From Flavobacteriales bacterium (GTDB lineage: Bacteria; Bacteroidota; Bacteroidia; Flavobacteriales; Flavobacteriaceae): a stretch of DNA of 43,335 nucleotides. The notes beneath the pieces are model-generated. The model was not told the origin of the DNA and made no database searches. It saw nothing but the letters and a program-made list of their open reading frames with translations. The DNA lies in contig WTIP01000109.1 in assembly GCA_011525195.1 (NCBI GenBank), forward strand, positions 1 to 43,335. The letters are read 5' to 3'. Position numbers and translations under genes: made by a program. This document shows positions 8,622 to 17,081 of the stretch, piece after piece. The number at the start of each line of letters is the position of its first letter. Within the stretch, counting starts at the first letter, position 1.

Positions 8622-9440
8622 ATGCAAAAATTACCCAAAATTGGCTTACCGGTCATCTTACTGATCGTTGTCATATTAATCTTTATCTCCAAGTCATCTA
8701 TTAATATTGGCTATGGAGAAGCAGGTGTTTTATTTAAAACTTTTGGTGGAGGTGTCGTAACAGATGAGCCCCCATTAGGAGAAGGATTTCATATTATCTC
8801 CCCTTGGAATAAAGTATATATCTATAATGTGAAGCAACAAGAGTTTTTTGAAGGAAATATGCAAGTACTCTCCTCTAATGGTCTTGAAATTTCATTAGAT
8901 GTATCTGTACTTTATCAGCCCAAATATGAAGAATTAGGACTCCTTCATAAAACAAAAGGTGAGAATTATGTCAATATAGTTTTAATCCCACAAATACGAG
9001 CTGTAGCCCGATCTGTAGTGGGACGTTATACGCCAGAACAATTGTATTCAACTAAACGCGATGCCATTCAGAATGAAATTTTTGAGGAAACACAAAAAAA
9101 TGTGGAATCACAACACATCCAATTGAATGCAGTGCTGGTTCGTGATGTTACCCTACCTGTAGCCATTAAAGAAGCGATTGAGCGCAAATTACGCCAAGAG
9201 CAGGAGGCCCTTGAATATGAATTCCGTATTGAAAAAGCCAGACAGGAAGCAGAACGTCAGCGAATTGATGCTGAAGGGAAAGCAACGGCAAACCGAATCT
9301 TAAGTGCTTCACTTACCGACAAGATTCTACAAGAAAAAGGAATTGAGGCTACGATTAAGCTTTCAGAATCACCAAATTCAAAAGTGATAGTAATTGGTAG
9401 CGGGAAAAATGGTTTGCCTATAATTTTAGGAAATCAATAA
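8622..9440 (+). CDS. Prohibitin-like SPFH domain membrane protein
   Basis: A 272-residue protein with one N-terminal transmembrane segment (about residues 8-25), an SPFH/prohibitin domain (about 28-200; blocks FKTFGGGVV, GFHIISPW and VVGRYTPEQLYSTKRDAIQ), and a charged alpha-helical, coiled-coil-like stretch (about 190-225) rich in Glu, Lys, Arg and Gln. Prohibitins form large membrane-bound rings that often associate with FtsH-type proteases; the role here is inferred only from the family. It starts 16 bases after fabG. Its stop is followed at once by the his promoter, so the transcript probably reads towards the his attenuator. Confidence 0.9.
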   Translation: MQKLPKIGLPVILLIVVILIFISKSSINIGYGEAGVLFKTFGGGVVTDEPPLGEGFHIISPWNKVYIYNVKQQEFFEGNMQVLSSNGLEISLDVSVLYQPKYEELGLLHKTKGENYVNIVLIPQIRAVARSVVGRYTPEQLYSTKRDAIQNEIFEETQKNVESQHIQLNAVLVRDVTLPVAIKEAIERKLRQEQEALEYEFRIEKARQEAERQRIDAEGKATANRILSASLTDKILQEKGIEATIKLSESPNSKVIVIGSGKNGLPIILGNQ

Positions 9441-9443
9441 AAT

Positions 9444-9472
9444 TTGAGTTTTAAAAAAAATAAATATATTTG
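9444..9472 (+). promoter_or_regulatory. Promoter of the his operon
   Basis: TTG (9444-9446, within TTTG) and TATATTTG (9465-9472) are separated by 18 bases, an exact match to the Bacteroidota TTG-N17-23-TAnnTTTG promoter. Transcription should start about 5 bases after the box, near 9477, only a few bases ahead of the leader-peptide ATG at 9481. Confidence 0.75.
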
Positions 9473-9480
9473 CTGCTCAA

Positions 9481-9537
9481 ATGAGAAAAACAAACTTACA
9501 TAGACATCATCTAAACACTCGATCAAACGAGTTGTAA
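9481..9537 (+). CDS. hisL: His operon leader peptide (attenuator peptide)
   Basis: This 18-codon reading frame encodes MRKTNLHRHHLNTRSNEL. Three His codons sit at 9499-9501, 9505-9507 and 9508-9510, with one Arg between the first two. It lies immediately after a consensus promoter and just before two alternative hairpins and an intrinsic terminator, all upstream of hisG. That is the classic arrangement of a ribosome-mediated attenuator: a shortage of charged His-tRNA stalls the ribosome at these codons. The product is presumably degraded and has no function of its own. By position, the mRNA would have almost no 5' untranslated region. Confidence 0.85.
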   Translation: MRKTNLHRHHLNTRSNEL

Positions 9538-9573
9538 TAGATTGTCTATGAAATTTATTACGAGCCCGTTTGA
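9499..9573 (+). promoter_or_regulatory. His attenuator: alternative pause and antiterminator hairpins
   Basis: Two mutually exclusive folds can be read directly. Fold A: 9499-9506 (CATAGACA) pairs perfectly with 9543-9550 (TGTCTATG), enclosing a 5-bp hairpin 9517-9521/9528-9532 (ACTCG/CGAGT). Fold B, the antiterminator: 9523-9529 (TCAAACG) pairs with 9567-9573 (CGTTTGA), and nested inside it 9532-9539 pairs with 9556-9563 (8 bp, one G-U). Fold B uses the left arm of the terminator, so both cannot form. A ribosome stalled at any of the three His codons would cover to about 9511-9522, breaking fold A and leaving fold B free. A ribosome at the stop codon (9535) would mask 9523-9529 and let the terminator form. 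Confidence 0.8.
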
Positions 9574-9594
9574 GCAATCAGACGGGCTTTTTTT
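9563..9594 (+). terminator. Intrinsic terminator of the his attenuator
   Basis: An 11-bp stem (9563-9573 with 9578-9588, one G-U pair) is closed by a GCAA tetraloop of the GNRA type and followed by a run of seven T (9588-9594). It ends 9 bases before the hisG start. Its left arm overlaps the antiterminator. Confidence 0.92.
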
Positions 9595-9603
9595 ATAAAA
9601 ACT

Positions 9604-10455
9604 ATGATACGAATAGCAATTCAAAAATCAGGCAGGCTTCACCAAGACTCTTTGAGTTTACTTAAAAGGTGTGGCATTTCAATTGATAATGGTAAAGATC
9701 AATTAAAAGCGGCTGCTCGAAATTTTCCTATGGAAGTCTTTTATTTACGAAATGGAGATATTCCACAATACTTAAGAGATGGCGTAGTAGATTTAGCCAT
9801 TATTGGCGAAAACCTTATTATTGAAAAAGGAGAAGACCTTGAAGTGATAGAACCCTTGGGCTTTTCAAAATGTAAGGTGTCTATAGCAGTGCCAAAAAAT
9901 CAAACTTTTAAGAGCCTAGAAGACCTTAACGGGAAGCGTATCGCGACCTCTTATCCGAATACGGTTACTAATTTTTTAGCCAAAAATAAAATAAAGGCTG
10001 AATTGCATATTATAAATGGATCAGTCGAAATTGCACCTAATATAGGATTAGCAGATGCTATTTGTGATATTGTATCAAGTGGTAGTACGCTTTTTAAAAA
10101 TAATTTAAAAGAAGTTGTAGAAATTGGGCGATCACAAGCTGTATTGGTTCAAGCGCCTGACATATCAAGTGAACTCCAGCAAACAATAGATAAACTTCGG
10201 TTTAGAATTCAAGCTGTTTTAAGAGCAAAGCAGTCCAAATACATCTTGCTTAATGCGCCCAATGATAAAATTAAGGCAATCAGTGCTATACTGCCAGTAT
10301 TGAAAAGTCCAACAGTATTGCCCTTGGCGCAAGAGGGATGGAGTTCGCTTCACTCTGTGATTAATGAGAGTGACTTCTGGGAGGTCATCGATCAGCTTAA
10401 AGCTGCTGGAGCGGAAGACATCTTAGTATGTCCAATTGAAAAAATGGTTTTGTGA
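9604..10455 (+). CDS. hisG: HisG, ATP phosphoribosyltransferase (long form)
   Basis: At 283 residues this is the long, hexameric, histidine-inhibited type, beginning MIRIAIQKSGRLHQDSLSLL and ending in the extra PII-like regulatory domain (about 210-283). The substrate-binding glycine/serine loop DIVSSGSTLFKNNL is intact. It joins ATP and PRPP in the first step of histidine synthesis. It is the first structural gene after the attenuator, so the committed step is controlled both by attenuation and, by family knowledge, by feedback inhibition. Its TGA overlaps the hisD ATG by one base. Confidence 0.97.
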   Translation: MIRIAIQKSGRLHQDSLSLLKRCGISIDNGKDQLKAAARNFPMEVFYLRNGDIPQYLRDGVVDLAIIGENLIIEKGEDLEVIEPLGFSKCKVSIAVPKNQTFKSLEDLNGKRIATSYPNTVTNFLAKNKIKAELHIINGSVEIAPNIGLADAICDIVSSGSTLFKNNLKEVVEIGRSQAVLVQAPDISSELQQTIDKLRFRIQAVLRAKQSKYILLNAPNDKIKAISAILPVLKSPTVLPLAQEGWSSLHSVINESDFWEVIDQLKAAGAEDILVCPIEKMVL

Positions 10456-11747
10456 TGCAGCAATTTATAAACCCCTCATTTGACGAATGGAATATTTTGA
10501 CTGAGCGACCTACAGCAAGTTATGAGGATCTAGAACCTTTGGTAGCTGAAGTTTTTGAAGCCGTAAAAAAAGAAGGCGATCAAGCCGTTAGGAAATATAC
10601 TGCTCAATTTGACAAAGTAGCACTCGAAGAAGTAAGAGTGGGTGCTCAAGCTATAAATAATGCCGAAAAGTTAGTTCCCGAAGCACTTAAAGCAGCAATA
10701 CAACAAGCCAAAGTAAATATTGAGTCTTTTCACAAGGCGCAGGACTATAAAATGCAGCAGCTTGAGACCCAAAAAGGGGTGGTTTGCTGGCAAGAGAAAA
10801 AACCAATAGAGAAAGTGGGTCTCTATATTCCAGGGGGCTCAGCGCCTTTATTTTCTACAATTTTAATGCTTGCGATTCCGGCTCAAATTGCGGGTTGTAA
10901 AGAAATTATTCTTTGTACGCCTCCCACTCAAGAAGGAACAGTTCCACCTGTAGTGCTCTATACAGCCCAATTGTGTGGGGTGGAAAAAATTTATACAATA
11001 GGAGGAATACAAGCCATTGCTGCTATGGCCTTAGGTACCGCTACAATTCCTAAAGTATATAAAATATTTGGCCCTGGTAATCAATATGTTACAGTTGCCA
11101 AACAGTGGGCCACACGCTATCAAGTTTCTATTGATATGCCTGCAGGTCCTAGTGAACTTTTAGTGGCTGCTGATGCCACTGCAAATCCTGCATTTATTGC
11201 GGCAGATTTATTGTCTCAGGCTGAACACGGTCCAGACAGCCAAGTACTTTTTGTAACCACGCACAGGTCTTTTTTGAGTGAAGTGACCGCTGCGCTTGAA
11301 GAGCAGCTTAATGCTTTGCCGAGAAAAGAGATAGCAGCACAGGCGTTGAAAAATTCTAAAGCTTTTTATTTTGAGACGAATCAGCAAGCCATTGACTTTA
11401 TTAATGCTTATGGTCCTGAACACTATATTGTTTGTGTTGAAAACGAAGCGCTTTATTTGGAGCAAGTGCGCAATGCAGGTTCTGTTTTTGTGGGGAATTT
11501 TACTCCAGAGAGTGCTGGAGATTATGCCTCGGGCACAAACCATACCTTACCTACTAATGGATATGCCAAGCACTATAGTGGGGTAAATTTAGATAGTTTC
11601 AGAAAGGCCATTACGTTTCAAAAAATCTCAAAAGAAGGAATTCAGTTGCTGGGCAATACGATTGAACTCATGGCGGAAGCAGAAGGTCTGCAGGCACATA
11701 AAAATGCAGTGCGTATTCGATTAAATACATTAGAGAATGAAATTTGA
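10455..11747 (+). CDS. hisD: HisD, histidinol dehydrogenase
   Basis: The 430-residue zinc enzyme oxidises L-histidinol to L-histidine with two NAD+. Visible family blocks are YIPGGSAPLFSTILMLAIPA, KIFGPGNQYVTVAKQ, DMPAGPSELLV, DLLSQAEHGPDSQV (zinc and catalytic region) and GPEHYIV. I start at ATG 10455 rather than the overlapping GTG at 10452. The ATG overlaps the hisG stop in a TGATG junction, pointing to translational coupling. The 3' end overlaps hisC by 11 bases. Confidence 0.96.
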   Translation: MQQFINPSFDEWNILTERPTASYEDLEPLVAEVFEAVKKEGDQAVRKYTAQFDKVALEEVRVGAQAINNAEKLVPEALKAAIQQAKVNIESFHKAQDYKMQQLETQKGVVCWQEKKPIEKVGLYIPGGSAPLFSTILMLAIPAQIAGCKEIILCTPPTQEGTVPPVVLYTAQLCGVEKIYTIGGIQAIAAMALGTATIPKVYKIFGPGNQYVTVAKQWATRYQVSIDMPAGPSELLVAADATANPAFIAADLLSQAEHGPDSQVLFVTTHRSFLSEVTAALEEQLNALPRKEIAAQALKNSKAFYFETNQQAIDFINAYGPEHYIVCVENEALYLEQVRNAGSVFVGNFTPESAGDYASGTNHTLPTNGYAKHYSGVNLDSFRKAITFQKISKEGIQLLGNTIELMAEAEGLQAHKNAVRIRLNTLENEI

Positions 11748-12789
11748 TGCCACTTCTTATTTGAGAAAGCGCCTGCTGGAACTAAAACCTTATCAATCTG
11801 CGCGCCAAGAATTTGTCAGCAATGGCGAATCCATGATTTTTTTAGATGCCAATGAGAGTCCGTATGAAACAGACCTCAATAGGTATCCCGATCCATTACA
11901 ACTTGAATTAAAAGCCTTAATCGCAAAATGGAAAGGGGTGCGTATCGAACAGTTGTATTTATCAAATGGAAGCGATGAATTTATTAGCCAAGTGATCATG
12001 GGCTGCTGTGAGCCTGATAAAGAGGCTATAATGATCGCCCCTCCTACATTTGGGATGTATAAAGTAGCAGCTGCGCTTCTTGGGGTCCAGGTGTGTGAAG
12101 TGCCGCTTACCCAAACCTTTGAATTGGATGTTGATGCACTGCTAGACAGGGCAGATGAGACGGTAAAAATACTTTTTATTGCAAATCCAAATAATCCTAC
12201 AGCGAATGCTTTTAAGCCCGAAGCCCTCGCGCGTATCCTCGATCACTTTCCAGGCTTAATTGTAATCGATGAGGCCTATTCAGAGTTTCATGATGCCCCT
12301 TCCTATATCAGTCAGTTAGATAAATACCCCAATCTTTTAGTTTGTCAAACCTTTTCTAAAGCCCAGGGTTTAGCTGGCGCTAGATTGGGAATCGCCTATG
12401 GACATCCCGATTTAATTTCCTTTTTTAATCGCATTAAAGCCCCCTATAATATTAATACTTTAACTTTAAGTACAGCAATTCAAAAAATTGATAAACAAGA
12501 AGTTGTAAAAAATCAAGTCAAATTAATTATTGAAGAGAGAAAGCGTTTAGAAGACGCTTTTTCAACCATCGAATGCATCCAAAAATGTTATCCTTCTGAT
12601 GCTAATTTTTTACTGATTCAAGTGGATGATGTGGCATTGCGCTATAAGCAACTCATAGATAAGGGGATTGTTGTGCGCAACACCTCTAAATACTTACATT
12701 GCGAAAATACGCTTCGGATTACTGTAGGTCTTCCAGAGGAAAATCAAGCCTTGATTAAGGCTTTTCAAAGTCTAAATCCAATAAAATGA
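11737..12789 (+). CDS. hisC: HisC, histidinol-phosphate aminotransferase
   Basis: A 350-residue fold-type I PLP aminotransferase. DANESPYE is near the N-terminus, [11 protein letters not shown] and NPNNPTAN line the cofactor site, VIDEAYSEF supplies the PLP-binding Asp/Tyr, and the Schiff-base lysine is in [15 protein letters not shown]. It converts imidazole acetol phosphate and glutamate to histidinol phosphate. The start lies 11 bases inside hisD and the stop overlaps hisB in ATGA. Confidence 0.96.
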
Positions 12790-13913
12790 AAAAAGTATTA
12801 TTTATAGACCGTGACGGAACATTAGCGCTAGAGCCTAAGGACTTTCAGCTTGACGCCTTTGAAAAACTTATTTTTTATCCAGGTGTATTTACTTATCTGG
12901 GTAAAATTGCCAAAGAATTTGATTATGAACTCGTAATGGTGACCAATCAAGATGGTTTGGGTACTTCCTCTTTCCCTGAGGAGACTTTTTGGCCCTTACA
13001 GCAGCTTCTAATTCAGTCTTTTGAAAATGAGGGTGTCGTATTTAGTGAGGTTTTGATCGATAAAAGTTTGCCTTCAGAACAAGCCCCTACGCGCAAGCCG
13101 CGTACAGGTATGTTAACCAAATATTTAAACAACCCAGAATACGACTTGAAAAACTCCTATGTCATTGGAGACCGAATGACAGATATGGAACTGGCAAAAA
13201 ATATAGGGTGTCAAGGGATCTTTCTAGCCAATAATCCCAATTTAGGTCTTGAAGAAGCTGATCCAGAGGACACATTTCCTGTAGTACTTTCTACTACTAA
13301 ATGGAAAGAAGTTTATGCCTTTTTAAAATTAGCGCAACGTCAAGTGGTCTATACACGTAAAACAAACGAAACAGCCATCGATCTTCAACTCAATCTGGAC
13401 GGTAGTGGGAAAAGTAAAATTCAAACTGGGATCGCTTTTTTTGATCATATGCTAGACCAATTGGCGCGCCATGGTGGAATGGATATAGAACTCAATGTCA
13501 AAGGTGATTTGGAAGTAGATGAGCACCATACGATTGAGGATACAGCCATCGCTTTAGGAGAAGCTTTTGCCCAAGCGCTGGGCTCTAAACTCGGCATAGA
13601 GCGCTATGGTTTTTGTTTGCCTATGGATGACTGCTTGGCGCAGGTTGCACTGGATTTTGGAGGGCGTAATTGGTTAGTCTGGGAGGCAGAATTTAAACGG
13701 GAGATGATTGGTCAAATGCCTACTGAAATGTTTATGCATTTTTTTAAGTCTTTCTCTGACGGTGCCAAGGCGAACTTAAATATACAAGCCAGTGGTACCA
13801 ATGAACACCATAAAATTGAAGCCATCTTCAAAGCCTTTGCTAAAGCCATAAAAATGGCGATTAAACGGGACCCTGATAATATGATTTTACCCTCTACTAA
13901 AGGCAGTTTATAA
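12786..13913 (+). CDS. hisB: HisB, bifunctional histidinol-phosphatase / imidazoleglycerol-phosphate dehydratase
   Basis: A 375-residue fusion. Residues 1 to about 170 are a HAD phosphatase, with nucleophile and acid D8/D10 in FIDRDGT, the TNQDG motif and [10 protein letters not shown]. Residues about 185-375 are the dehydratase, with its metal-binding histidines in [22 protein letters not shown] and [10 protein letters not shown]. In the phosphatase half, the E. coli zinc loop (C92, H94, C100, C102) aligns with [14 protein letters not shown] here, which has none of the four ligands; RKP is kept. The two activities are steps 6 and 8 of the pathway. hisH begins directly after its stop with no gap. 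Confidence 0.95.
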
Positions 13914-14498
13914 ATGGTTGCTATCATAGATTACGGGGCAGGAAATACAAAGAGTCTACAGTTTGCTTTAGAGCGACTGGGTGCCTCTCATATTCTTACT
14001 TCAGATGCCGAAATAATTAAACAAGCGGAGAGAGTTATTTTTCCGGGTCAAGGGGCAGCGGGGAGTGCAATGACCAAACTAATTGATACGGGTCTTGATC
14101 AGTTGATTCCTACTTTGAAACAACCCCTTTTAGGTATTTGTCTAGGGATGCAATTACTCTGTGAGTATTCTGAGGAAGGGGGAGTAGAAGGACTTGGTAT
14201 CATCAAAGGAAGTGTCAAACGGTTTGGTGGTACTGTTAAAGTGCCTCAAATGGGTTGGAACAGCATTTACGATCCCAAAAGCCCCTTATTTGAGGGTATA
14301 AATGAAGGTGATTTTATGTATTTGGTACATTCTTATTATGTACCACTATGCAAGGAAACTGTGGCCATCAGTCACTATAACGGGCCTTATAGTGTAGCCC
14401 TACAGAAAGCTAATTTTTATGGAGTTCAGTTTCATCCAGAAAAAAGCAGTCTCAAAGGGCAATTACTACTTCAAAATTTTTTAAAACTTCCCGCATGA
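13914..14498 (+). CDS. hisH: HisH, glutaminase subunit of imidazole glycerol phosphate synthase
   Basis: A 194-residue class I glutamine amidotransferase. It has [11 protein letters not shown], the oxyanion-strand block [11 protein letters not shown], the nucleophilic Cys in GICLGMQLL, and the His/Glu pair in [10 protein letters not shown]. It releases ammonia from glutamine and feeds it to HisF. The ATG follows hisB's TAA without a gap, and its stop overlaps hisA in ATGA. hisF is two genes away. Confidence 0.96.
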
Positions 14499-15223
14499 GA
14501 ATATGCCCAGCCATAGACCTTATAGAAGGAAAGTGTGTCCGCCTTTCTAAAGGAGATTATGCCACAAAAAAGATTTATAATGAATCTCCTTTAGAAGTAG
14601 CAAAGGCTTTTGAAGCGCATGGAATTGAGTATTTACATCTGGTAGACTTAGACGGCGCAAAGTCAAAACACATCGTTAATTACAAAGTTTTGGAAACATT
14701 GGCGAGCCAAACATCATTAAAAATTGATTTTGGGGGAGGGCTAAAATCAGATCAAGACATTAAAATTGCTTTCGAAAGTGGTGCTGCACAGATTACAGGT
14801 GGAAGTATAGCCGTTAAGGCACCTGAAATTTTTAACAACTGGCTCAAGCGCTATGGTACAGAGAAAATTATTTTAGGAGCAGATGTCAAAGGTTTAAAGA
14901 TAGCAACAGACGGCTGGTTAGAGACTTCAGATCAGTCACTTTTTGAGTTTATTGAATACTATAAAAGTCAAGGAATCGAATATGTAATATGCACTGATAT
15001 CAGTAAAGACGGGATGTTAGAAGGCCCTGCTTTTGCACTTTATCAAAAGCTACTTGCAAAAGTTCAGATCAAGCTGATCGCTTCGGGTGGGATTTCTAAA
15101 TTTGAAGAACTCCCTGAGCTCGCAGCTTTGGGCTGTGAAGGAGCGATTATCGGCAAAGCGATTTATGAAAACCGTATTTCATTAAAACAATTGGAAAATT
15201 ATATTATTGGAAATGGAAACTGA
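14495..15223 (+). CDS. hisA: HisA, ProFAR isomerase
   Basis: A 242-residue (beta-alpha)8 barrel starting [22 protein letters not shown]. The catalytic aspartates lie in PAIDLIEG and [12 protein letters not shown], and phosphate is bound by the two half-barrel loops DFGGGL and ASGGIS. It performs the Amadori isomerisation of ProFAR to PRFAR. Its last 11 bases overlap the start of the DinB-like gene. Confidence 0.96.
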
Positions 15224-15734
15224 GTTGATTACAGAATTTAAAAAACACAGTATTTACCGCTTGGAAGAAGGGCTGCGCATGCTCAAAAAAGCCTTGTCTT
15301 TTGTAGATCAGGAGCAGTTTTGGAAAATTCCTTATAAAAAGGGGATGTCTCTAGGGAATCAGTTGCTTCACGCCCAAGGAAATATGAGACAATACATCCT
15401 TTCCTCATTAGGCAAAGAACCTGATCTGAGGCATAGAGATAGAGAGTTTGTATACTCCCCCGAAATAGACAAGTCGCAACTACTTAGCGAACTGGAAGCC
15501 ACTGTAAAAGCTTCAATACAATGTATAGAAAATACGACTGAGGCAGAATTTCTTAAAATCCGCAAAGTCCAAGCCTTCACTTTCAGCGGTCTGGGTGCTG
15601 TGCTCCACGCGGTAGAGCATTTTTCTTATCATGTTGGACAAACGGCCTTTTGGGTAAAGTCGATGACAGCGCAACAGCTAGGTTTTTATGAGGGGGTGGA
15701 TTTAAATGAAAAAAACGAAAGCAATGCTGACTAA
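15213..15734 (+). CDS. DinB-like (DUF1572-type) four-helix protein inside the his operon
   Basis: A 173-residue helical protein of the DinB/YfiT-like superfamily. The His pattern [11 protein letters not shown] plus [13 protein letters not shown] is the usual three-histidine metal site. Members include bacillithiol- and mycothiol-dependent transferases and many proteins of unknown role; the function here is unknown. It overlaps hisA by 11 bases upstream and hisF by 11 bases downstream, so it is fully embedded and likely translated in step with the his enzymes. I start at ATG 15213; a TTG six bases earlier is less likely. Confidence 0.8.
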
Positions 15735-16485
15735 ACGAATCATACCCTGTTTGGACATCAAAGACGGACGCACTGTAAAAGGGGTTAATTTTGTCAATTT
15801 ACGCGATGCAGGAGACCCCGTAGCACTGGCGGCGCAATACGCCCAAGAGCAGGCAGATGAATTGGTTTTTTTAGATATCTCAGCTACTGAACAAAAGCGC
15901 AAAACACTGGCGAATCTTGTATTGAGAGTTGCAGCAGCCATTGATATTCCCTTTACTGTAGGGGGCGGAATCAGTACTATTGAAGACGTGGCTATTTTAT
16001 TAAAAAATGGAGCCGATAAAGTCTCTGTCAATTCTGCCGCAGTAAAAAACCCTAAATTGATTGATGCGCTGGCGGAGCAGTTCGGATCTCAGTGTATCGT
16101 AGTCGCCATTGATGCCAAGCAAATTGAAGGGCAATGGAAAGTACATTTAGTAGGTGGAAAAGAACCTACAGATAGAGACCTTTTTGAATGGGCCAAAGAG
16201 GTAGAACAACGAGGTGCTGGAGAACTACTCTTTACCTCTATGGACCATGACGGCACCAAACAAGGCTTTGCCAATGAGGCGCTAGCAAGACTTTCAGTAG
16301 AAACAAACTTACCTGTTATAGCCTCTGGTGGTGCTGGAAATATTTCGCATTTTAGTGAGGCTTTTACGATAGGCAAGGCTGATGCAGCCCTAGCAGCCAG
16401 TGTCTTTCACTTTGGTGAAATTGCGATACCTGAACTAAAGAATAAATTAAAACAACAGCAAATTGCTGTACGAATAGACAAATGA
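15724..16485 (+). CDS. hisF: HisF, cyclase subunit of imidazole glycerol phosphate synthase
   Basis: A 253-residue (beta-alpha)8 barrel. [20 protein letters not shown] carries the catalytic Asp in CLDIKDG, and the second catalytic Asp is in [10 protein letters not shown]. Phosphate-binding loops are VGGGIS and ASGGAG. It uses ammonia from HisH to convert PRFAR to imidazole glycerol phosphate and AICAR. I start at ATG 15724 because the standard HisF N-terminus begins there; an in-frame ATG at 15706 would add six charged residues. The start overlaps the DinB-like gene by 11 bases, and the stop overlaps hisIE in ATGA. Confidence 0.96.
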
Positions 16486-17081
16486 TGAAACCTGATTTTT
16501 CTAAAAACCCAGACCAGTTAATCCCTGCAATTATTCAAGATGCCATTACCCAAAAGGTCTTGATGCTAGGCTATATGAATGCCGAATCATTTGAGGCTAC
16601 ACAAAAACTTCAAAAAGTCACTTTTTTTAGTCGTTCGAAACAGCGACTTTGGACAAAAGGGGAGGAGAGTGGTCATTATTTAAATTTACAATCTATTCAA
16701 TTAGATTGTGACCAAGATTGCCTCCTCATACAAGCCCTACCCCAAGGACCAACTTGTCACAAAGGAACAGACAGCTGCTGGGGCGATGAGAATAATCATC
16801 CTTTGGCTACACTTTTAGAATTAGAGGCCGTTATTGATTTACGTAAAAAAGAAAATACGGCCGACAGCTATGTAGCTTCTCTTTTTCAAGCAGGGATCAA
16901 TAAAATTGCTCAAAAAGTAGGGGAGGAAGCTGTAGAAACTGTAATCGAAGCCAAAGACAATAATGCGGACTTATTTTTAAATGAAAGCGCAGACCTTTTA
17001 TTTCACTACCTTGTTTTACTTCAAGCCAAAGGCTATAAGTTGGAAGATGTGGCCCGTATTTTAGCAGCACGAAAAAAATAA
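16482..17081 (+). CDS. hisIE: HisIE, phosphoribosyl-AMP cyclohydrolase / phosphoribosyl-ATP pyrophosphatase
   Basis: A 199-residue fusion. The N-terminal half is the cyclohydrolase, with [26 protein letters not shown], the Asp/Cys metal-site stretch LDCDQDC, and CHKGTDSCW. The C-terminal half (about 110-199) is the MazG-like pyrophosphatase with [13 protein letters not shown]. Together they perform steps 2 and 3 of histidine synthesis. It is the last gene of the operon. I see no convincing terminator in the 58 bases before the DUF2461 gene. Confidence 0.96.

Follow-up and report, generated by a model that had tools for sequence, protein, structure and literature searches.

A probable ribosome-mediated attenuator of the his operon in Flavobacteriaceae, and a further strand that pairs with its terminator in many relatives

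The his operon of the window (the whole stretch of 43,335 nt analysed here, a contig of a 1.82-Mb genome in 172 contigs) is preceded by an element that very probably acts as a ribosome-mediated transcription attenuator. It consists of a short leader ORF with His codons, a pause hairpin, an antiterminator and an intrinsic terminator, the latter two sharing one strand and excluding each other (Table 1). The leader ORF, the helix between strands X and 3 (X:3) and the terminator are conserved in relatives with compensatory changes, which argues for a classical attenuator of this kind.

Architecture of the his leader

The genes behind the attenuator are those of histidine biosynthesis, as identified by NCBIfam matches. 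The genes hisGDCBHA, hisF and hisIE, together with an unnamed ORF, would form one transcript. The unnamed ORF (15207-15734, 175 aa), which separates hisA from hisF, matches no NCBIfam family; judged by eye, it may be DinB-like. The start of hisG lies at position 9604, 66 nt downstream of the leader stop codon and 15 nt downstream of the terminator. Among the best ten listed, the closest named relatives of its HisG share 83-87% identity and are records of uncultured Flavobacteriaceae or Bacteroidetes, which are marine or estuarine as judged from the isolate names.

Table 1. Features of the his leader and operon in the window
Feature	Sequence	Position	Strand	Basis and remarks
Presumed -33 box of leader promoter	TTG	9444..9446	+	Sequence; N18 up to the -7 box
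-7 box	TATATTTG	9465..9472	+	Sequence
Leader ORF, 18 aa	MRKTNLHRHHLNTRSNEL + TAA	9481..9537	+	ATG 9481, TAA 9535-9537
Leader His codons		9499-9501, 9505-9507, 9508-9510	+	Sequence
Strand 1, pause hairpin 5' arm	CATAGACA	9499..9506	+	Partner arm 9543-9550
Strand X, antiterminator 5' strand	TCAAACG	9523..9529	+	In the last leader codons; pairs with CGTTTGA 9567-9573
Inner antiterminator helix, 5' arm	TTGTAATA	9532..9539	+	Partner 9556-9563; folds in the window
Strand 2, pause hairpin 3' arm	TGTCTATG	9543..9550	+	Partner arm 9499-9506
Inner antiterminator helix, 3' arm	TATTACGA	9556..9563	+	Partner 9532-9539
Strand 3, shared by terminator (5' arm) and antiterminator (3' strand)	AGCCCGTTTGA	9563..9573	+	
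Strand 4, terminator 3' arm	TCAGACGGGCT	9578..9588	+	Sequence, family alignment A1
Terminator U-tract	seven T	9588..9594	+	Sequence; first T also paired
Operon hisG-hisD-hisC-hisB-hisH-hisA-(unnamed ORF)-hisF-hisIE		9604..17081	+	ORFs, NCBIfam matches

A preliminary description of this DNA had proposed a promoter of the form TTG-N18-TATATTTG, and inspection of the sequence bore it out at 9444-9472, with the TTG as the presumed -33 box. The consensus of the -7 box is quoted as TAnnTTTG (PMC9723704). The box TATATTTG is invariant in all 18 sequences of alignment A2, which represents the window's clade by 18 of 24 sequences considered; the other six have leaders resembling those of the rest of the family and were omitted, and their -7 box is identical by eye. 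Among the 98 family loci with a leader ORF, a strict TANNTTTG box occurs within 70 nt before the leader ATG at 43 (6.4% in shuffles), with no such box in that interval at 55. It lies 4-11 nt before the ATG at 20 loci (8 nt in the window) and 17-24 nt before it at 18, and is accompanied by a TTG at the window's spacing in 19 of the 43. Since the -7 box stops 8 nt short of the ATG, translation of the window's leader probably begins at a nearly leaderless 5' end. Bacteroidota rarely use Shine-Dalgarno sites, and a Shine-Dalgarno-like motif was found upstream of the leader ATG at only 3 of the 98 family loci.

Stability of the predicted folds was assessed against dinucleotide shuffles, with none of 200 shuffles equally stable in any case. 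The z scores are -9.5 for the whole leader (9478-9595), -7.6 for the antiterminator stretch (9521-9574), -6.2 for the terminator and -5.0 for the pause region (9478-9556). The terminator helix has 11 bp, ten of them Watson-Crick and one G-U, closed by a GCAA loop and followed by the seven T, just as initially described.

We propose that RNA polymerase would start a few nucleotides upstream of the leader ATG, as suggested by the -7 box, and that a ribosome, unaided by a Shine-Dalgarno site, would load at this ATG close to the 5' end and translate the leader behind the polymerase. With ample charged His-tRNA, the ribosome would reach the stop codon and cover strand X (9523-9529), whereupon strand 3 would pair with strand 4 and transcription would terminate at the U-tract before hisG. 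When charged His-tRNA is scarce, the ribosome would stall at one of the three His codons, which start 15-24 nt before 9523. Strand X and the next segment would then be free, and their pairing with strand 3 and the bases flanking it on the 5' side would form the antiterminator, block the terminator and allow transcription of the operon. Helix 1:2 would serve in pausing.

The spacing of these elements fits such a course of events, as the preliminary description had argued. In the window, the antiterminator strand has its aligned start at 9522; the three His codons begin 23, 17 and 14 nt upstream of this position and the stop codon 13 nt past it. At least two His codons are located at least 13 nt upstream of X in all 96 aligned family leaders, and the stop codon starts 11 nt past the start of X in 81 of the 96. 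Because the stop-to-X spacing is tight, a ribosome at the stop codon would cover X; the ribosome footprint assumed here is general knowledge, and the spacing test is purely geometric.

In addition, the segment CTCAAATG around the leader start codon (9476-9483) complements the 5' arm of the terminator. The pairing reaches at least the 95th percentile of shuffles in 10 of 18 clade members, and none of the 96 family leaders has it at score 18. It is possible that this segment forms an extra pairing specific to the window's clade.

Conservation and covariation in Flavobacteriaceae

HisG is present in 99 of 120 genomes of Flavobacteriaceae (labelled f1), two weak matches (E > 1e-4) having been left out before counting. 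At 98 of these 99 loci, the window included, hisG is preceded by a leader ORF holding two or more His codons, whose stop codon lies 66-178 nt before the gene; at the remaining locus, L075, the leader is cut by the contig end and the terminator is kept. At a stricter leader score of at least 6, a His-rich leader was found at 92 of the 98 loci, compared to 0.2% of dinucleotide shuffles and none on the reverse strand, and residues other than His attained it at no more than 7 of the 98. The leaders of six loci score below 5. A typical family leader reads MTFIQLHHHHFHTCTQAS, and the locus L231, a relative near the window, shows the same leader pattern, MKTRTLHRHHSTTRSNEM. Moreover, each of the 80 loci of named HisG relatives (the named loci) combines a terminator with an ORF holding two or more His codons, the leader score being below 3 in six of them.

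The family leaders contain 2-6 His codons with a median of 4 (361 CAT and 34 CAC in 96 leaders), three being present in 25 of the 96 and only two in 3. The 18-codon leader with three His codons holds as first described; the emphasis on only three sensing codons was right in number, but such a number is usual in the family.

Alignment A1 comprises 96 of the 99 family leaders, without L075 (contig end) and without L024 and L099, for which the scan gave no perfect terminator. All 96 leaders of A1, that of the window included, have a terminator with a U-tract. In A1, 98.0% of the terminator cells are paired, with 37 double-changed cells against a mean of 4.7 in shuffles, none of 500 being as high. 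Of the cells of the X:3 helix (consensus CTCAAGCG/CGTTTGAG), 95.0% are paired, and 14 are double-changed against a shuffle mean of 4.2 (0/500 as high); double changes are seen at three of its pairs, a number reached by 52 of the 500 shuffles. X:3 is also part of the minimum-energy fold in 95 of 96 antiterminator stretches. One position covaries across all three strands, a C in strand 3 of ten sequences being matched by G in both X and 4. The lack of a conserved leader frame or of conserved paired arms, which the preliminary description had named as refuting, was therefore not observed: the relatives keep the frame, the His codons, the antiterminator and the terminator, and the paired arms covary.

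The preliminary description had also claimed a two-part antiterminator and an 8-bp pause stem. The first antiterminator helix, X:3, is well borne out in the family; in the 18 sequences of A2 it is paired in 99.2% of cells but nearly invariant. The inner helix, by contrast, is paired in 67.4% of cells at the fixed columns of A2, with zero compensatory changes; each of the 18 members can form an inner helix of its own of at least 5 bp, a count made without chance control. The pause stem is present and stable in the window, but in the 18 sequences of A2 its covariation is not above that of shuffles (72.5% of cells paired versus 71.7%). Family-wide, the pause helix reaches at least the 95th percentile of shuffles in 46 of 96 leaders, with a mean score of 17.4 for own arms compared to 14.7 for swapped partners.

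Range beyond the family

Outside the family, we sampled 100 hisG loci from 30 families, hand-picked among the matches listed to spread families. A His-rich leader with a score of at least 5 was found at 83 of these 100 hand-picked loci, compared to 0.4% of shuffles and none on the reverse strand. At score 6, the same loci gave 79 for His and no more than 15 for any other residue, Ile being the highest. The terminator arms differ from family to family (GGCTTACC, CCCGGC and CGTCTGA, for instance), and the leader C-termini are unrelated to those of Flavobacteriaceae. At 43 of the 60 loci that were testable, part of the sequence separating the last His codons from the terminator complements the 5' arm of the latter (p<0.05, mononucleotide shuffles). 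As far as sequences can tell, the plan of the attenuator is kept across families and its letters are not.

At E <= 0.01, a covariance model of the leader matched 116 of 246 genomes in the order and 89 of 395 in the phylum, counts that include partial and reverse-strand matches. We also searched 22 genomes with divergent or otherwise unsampled HisG, of which 20 upstream regions were analysed. A leader score of at least 5 was reached at two of these 20 loci, both among the three whose HisG has E ~1e-70, and at none of the 17 with divergent HisG; presence throughout the phylum was rejected on these grounds. An open frame of more than 100 aa reaches hisG at 12 of the 20 loci, so hisG may be a non-first gene there.

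His-rich leaders were found at none of the three loci of family f16, which has genomes of 0.3-0.6 Mb. In families f17 (L164-L168) and f38 (L207-L212), no terminator above threshold was found (0/5 and 0/6, respectively) although His-rich leaders are present, and therefore the mechanism there may differ; possibly the two families use another form of attenuation. Five of the six f38 leaders are read with a GTG start.

Genome G173, assigned to another family, has two hisG loci on contigs C57 and C76 (L159). One hisG is 80% identical to that of the window and is preceded by the type of leader seen in the window's clade, which may reflect either contamination of the MAG or transfer. The window's own genome (G000) has a weak second match to the his leader model on contig C69 (3224-3340, E 0.003), which may be a chance match or another attenuator.

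A fifth strand ahead of hisG

The gap between terminator and hisG is bimodal, with 49 short gaps of 15-29 nt (the window's type) and 132 long ones. In relatives with a long gap, we found, ahead of hisG, a segment of up to 13 nt that complements the 5' arm of the terminator together with its loop, termed strand 5; it is absent from the window. A first scan detected it in 53 of 80 family loci with enough gap. Among distinct loci with a searchable gap of at least 22 nt it occurs in 79 of 134, distributed as 53/81 in f1, 12/38 in the named loci, 8/8 in f5, 3/3 in f15, 2/2 in f7, 1/1 in f13 and 0/1 in f14. Carriers include L017, L021, L022, L033, L097, L267, L296 and L308. In L017, L030, L037 and L059, where 33-47 nt separate strand 5 from the ATG, a small hairpin can be seen by eye in between.

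The comparison of sequences gives good support to strand 5 as a real pairing. When strand 5 was matched with partners having a different loop, the own partner won 2142 of 2400 swaps, with 110 ties and 148 losses. Variants are compensated by Watson-Crick partners at position 3 in 19 of 19 cases, position 8 in 27/29, position 9 in 14/15, position 10 in 14/20, position 11 in 13/26 and position 12 in 11/16, these being uncorrected counts from 79 interrelated loci preselected for pairing, with the register set without the tested position. Swapped partners from other loci compensate 8-30% at those positions. Because the loop takes no part in the terminator helix, this covariation is evidence in its own right.

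In 65 of the 79 loci, strand 5 stops 13-20 nt short of the hisG ATG; in 70 it stops 11-22 nt short, compared to 35% expected under uniform placement. Of 53 long-gap loci lacking a strong strand 5, moreover, 22 have a weak one at the same place, against 5.6% in shuffles.

Three readings of this strand were tried and rejected or found unsupported. The 3:5 helix is not supported as the dominant fold, lying below the energy of 3:4 in 5 of 53 loci only and being weaker by 4.1 kcal/mol on average. Strand 5 is not part of a second terminator, since the downstream spacer is A-rich (62% A) and has no U-tract. Pairing in trans with terminated leader RNA found no support in co-folding energies, which are -2.2 kcal/mol for own and -1.9 kcal/mol for different-loop partners (n=53) in a calculation blind to loop-loop contacts.

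As a guess, strand 5 perhaps exerts a second control, at translation. We tentatively propose, at rather less than an even chance, that the Flavobacteriales his leader forms a two-level switch, in which one ribosome-sensing event would set both termination and hisG translation. Three partners would then compete for strand 3, namely X under starvation, strand 4 for termination and, in many long-gap genomes, strand 5, whose end would mostly lie at the upstream edge of the hisG ribosome landing site. In the readthrough RNA, X:3 would keep the hisG start open, whereas 3:5, or 3:4 in compact leaders like that of the window, would hinder initiation.

A rival explanation would be a mainly translational attenuator of hisG, in which a partner of strand 3 near the start blocks initiation and termination is secondary. 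We consider this unlikely. The clustering of strand 5 ends at 11-22 nt before hisG in the long-gap loci would suit it, as would the 49 short-gap loci, where the core of strand 4 ends 15-29 nt before hisG; however, strand 4 near the start may simply be melted by 30S binding, and 3:5 is on average the weaker helix. The terminator with its U-tract, kept in the window and all 95 aligned relatives, also speaks against termination being secondary.

Comparison with known regulators

Rfam searches gave no match at the gathering threshold in the window, RF00514 (His_leader) and T-box included. The region 9400-9650 has 15 sub-threshold matches, none of them to RF00514 or T-box, the best being L10_leader with 27.8 bits versus a threshold of 44; in nine relatives, 10 sub-threshold matches likewise include neither RF00514 nor T-box. 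The sub-threshold matches to L10_leader, PyrR and Trp_leader were dropped as unrelated models.

That a metabolite- or tRNA-binding leader, such as a T-box or an unidentified riboswitch, governs the terminator while the His ORF is incidental would equally fit the terminator and the alternative helix taken alone, but is very improbable in view of the lack of any Rfam family at the gathering threshold in the window and, between families, of a His-rich ORF that persists while the stems change completely. Just as improbable is a small functional peptide, or translational coupling, with a constitutive terminator: the C-terminal residues QA(R/S/K) recur across many family leaders as a functional peptide might require, yet this ending would be explained by X consisting of the last leader codons, these same codons covary with strand 3, the C-termini in other families are unrelated, and a stop codon 66 nt from hisG in the window is, in our judgement, too far for simple coupling.

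The ribosome-mediated attenuator proposed here resembles that of enterobacteria (hisL, RF00514), as described in the passages compared, in its short His-rich leader ORF, which has 18 aa in both, and in the exclusive antiterminator and intrinsic terminator ahead of the same operon (PMC3896937, PMC9413887). They differ in that the enterobacterial leader has seven His codons in a row compared to 2-6 in the flavobacterial family. Unlike the enterobacterial element, moreover, the flavobacterial one has X inside the last ORF codons and rarely a Shine-Dalgarno-like motif (3/98), and that of the window has its ATG a few nucleotides from the predicted 5' end and no RF00514 match.

According to the parts of a 2022 paper compared here, his attenuators occur in Proteobacteria and some Firmicutes (PMC9413887). 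Those of Firmicutes, with leaders of three to five His codons, a terminator and an antiterminator, are similar to the flavobacterial element by description, and belong to another phylum. The string 'bacteroid' has no occurrence in the main text of that paper, and the compared parts of the two papers on his regulation (PMC9413887, PMC3896937) do not mention Bacteroidota. The trp attenuator rnTrpL/peTrpL of Sinorhizobium meliloti, as presented in the passages compared, also combines a leaderless RNA starting at the leader ATG with a leader peptide (PMC7298713). It serves another amino acid in another phylum, and its terminated RNA acts in trans on the mRNA of a second operon, trpDC, an action for which co-folding energies give no support in the flavobacterial his leader. 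Bacteroides sORFs reminiscent of leader peptides have been reported in a paper whose compared passages mention neither hisG nor histidine (PMC7366714), and term matching in the main text of two more papers gave nothing relevant (PMC2864571, PMC6429828).

The closest precedent is one paragraph of a 2021 paper (PMC9723704), which reports a structured hisG 5' element of Flavobacterium psychrophilum, conserved in Flavobacteriaceae and without an Rfam match, and clues for leader-peptide attenuation ahead of amino acid operons. It is very likely the same element as that of the window, and the remark in the preliminary description that no well-described version was known in Bacteroidota was nearly right, with this paragraph as the exception. 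Compared to the present analysis, the parts of that paper examined give no leader sequence, antiterminator, covariation, extra-family range or strand 5. Strand 5 would be new, as none of the literature passages compared mentions it. Altogether, the kind of switch is already known, and the flavobacterial member is new and better documented.

Implications

The comparison shows that his leader-peptide attenuation is common in the sampled Bacteroidota, and an Rfam family could be built from the alignment and the covariance model. With strand 5 comes the puzzle of why the terminator loop stays complementary to a site adjoining the hisG start codon. Such an attenuator works only if the first ribosome loads fast and trails the polymerase closely, and the his leader would thus offer a natural, testable read-out in this phylum both for the early coupling of transcription to translation and for near-leaderless ATG initiation.
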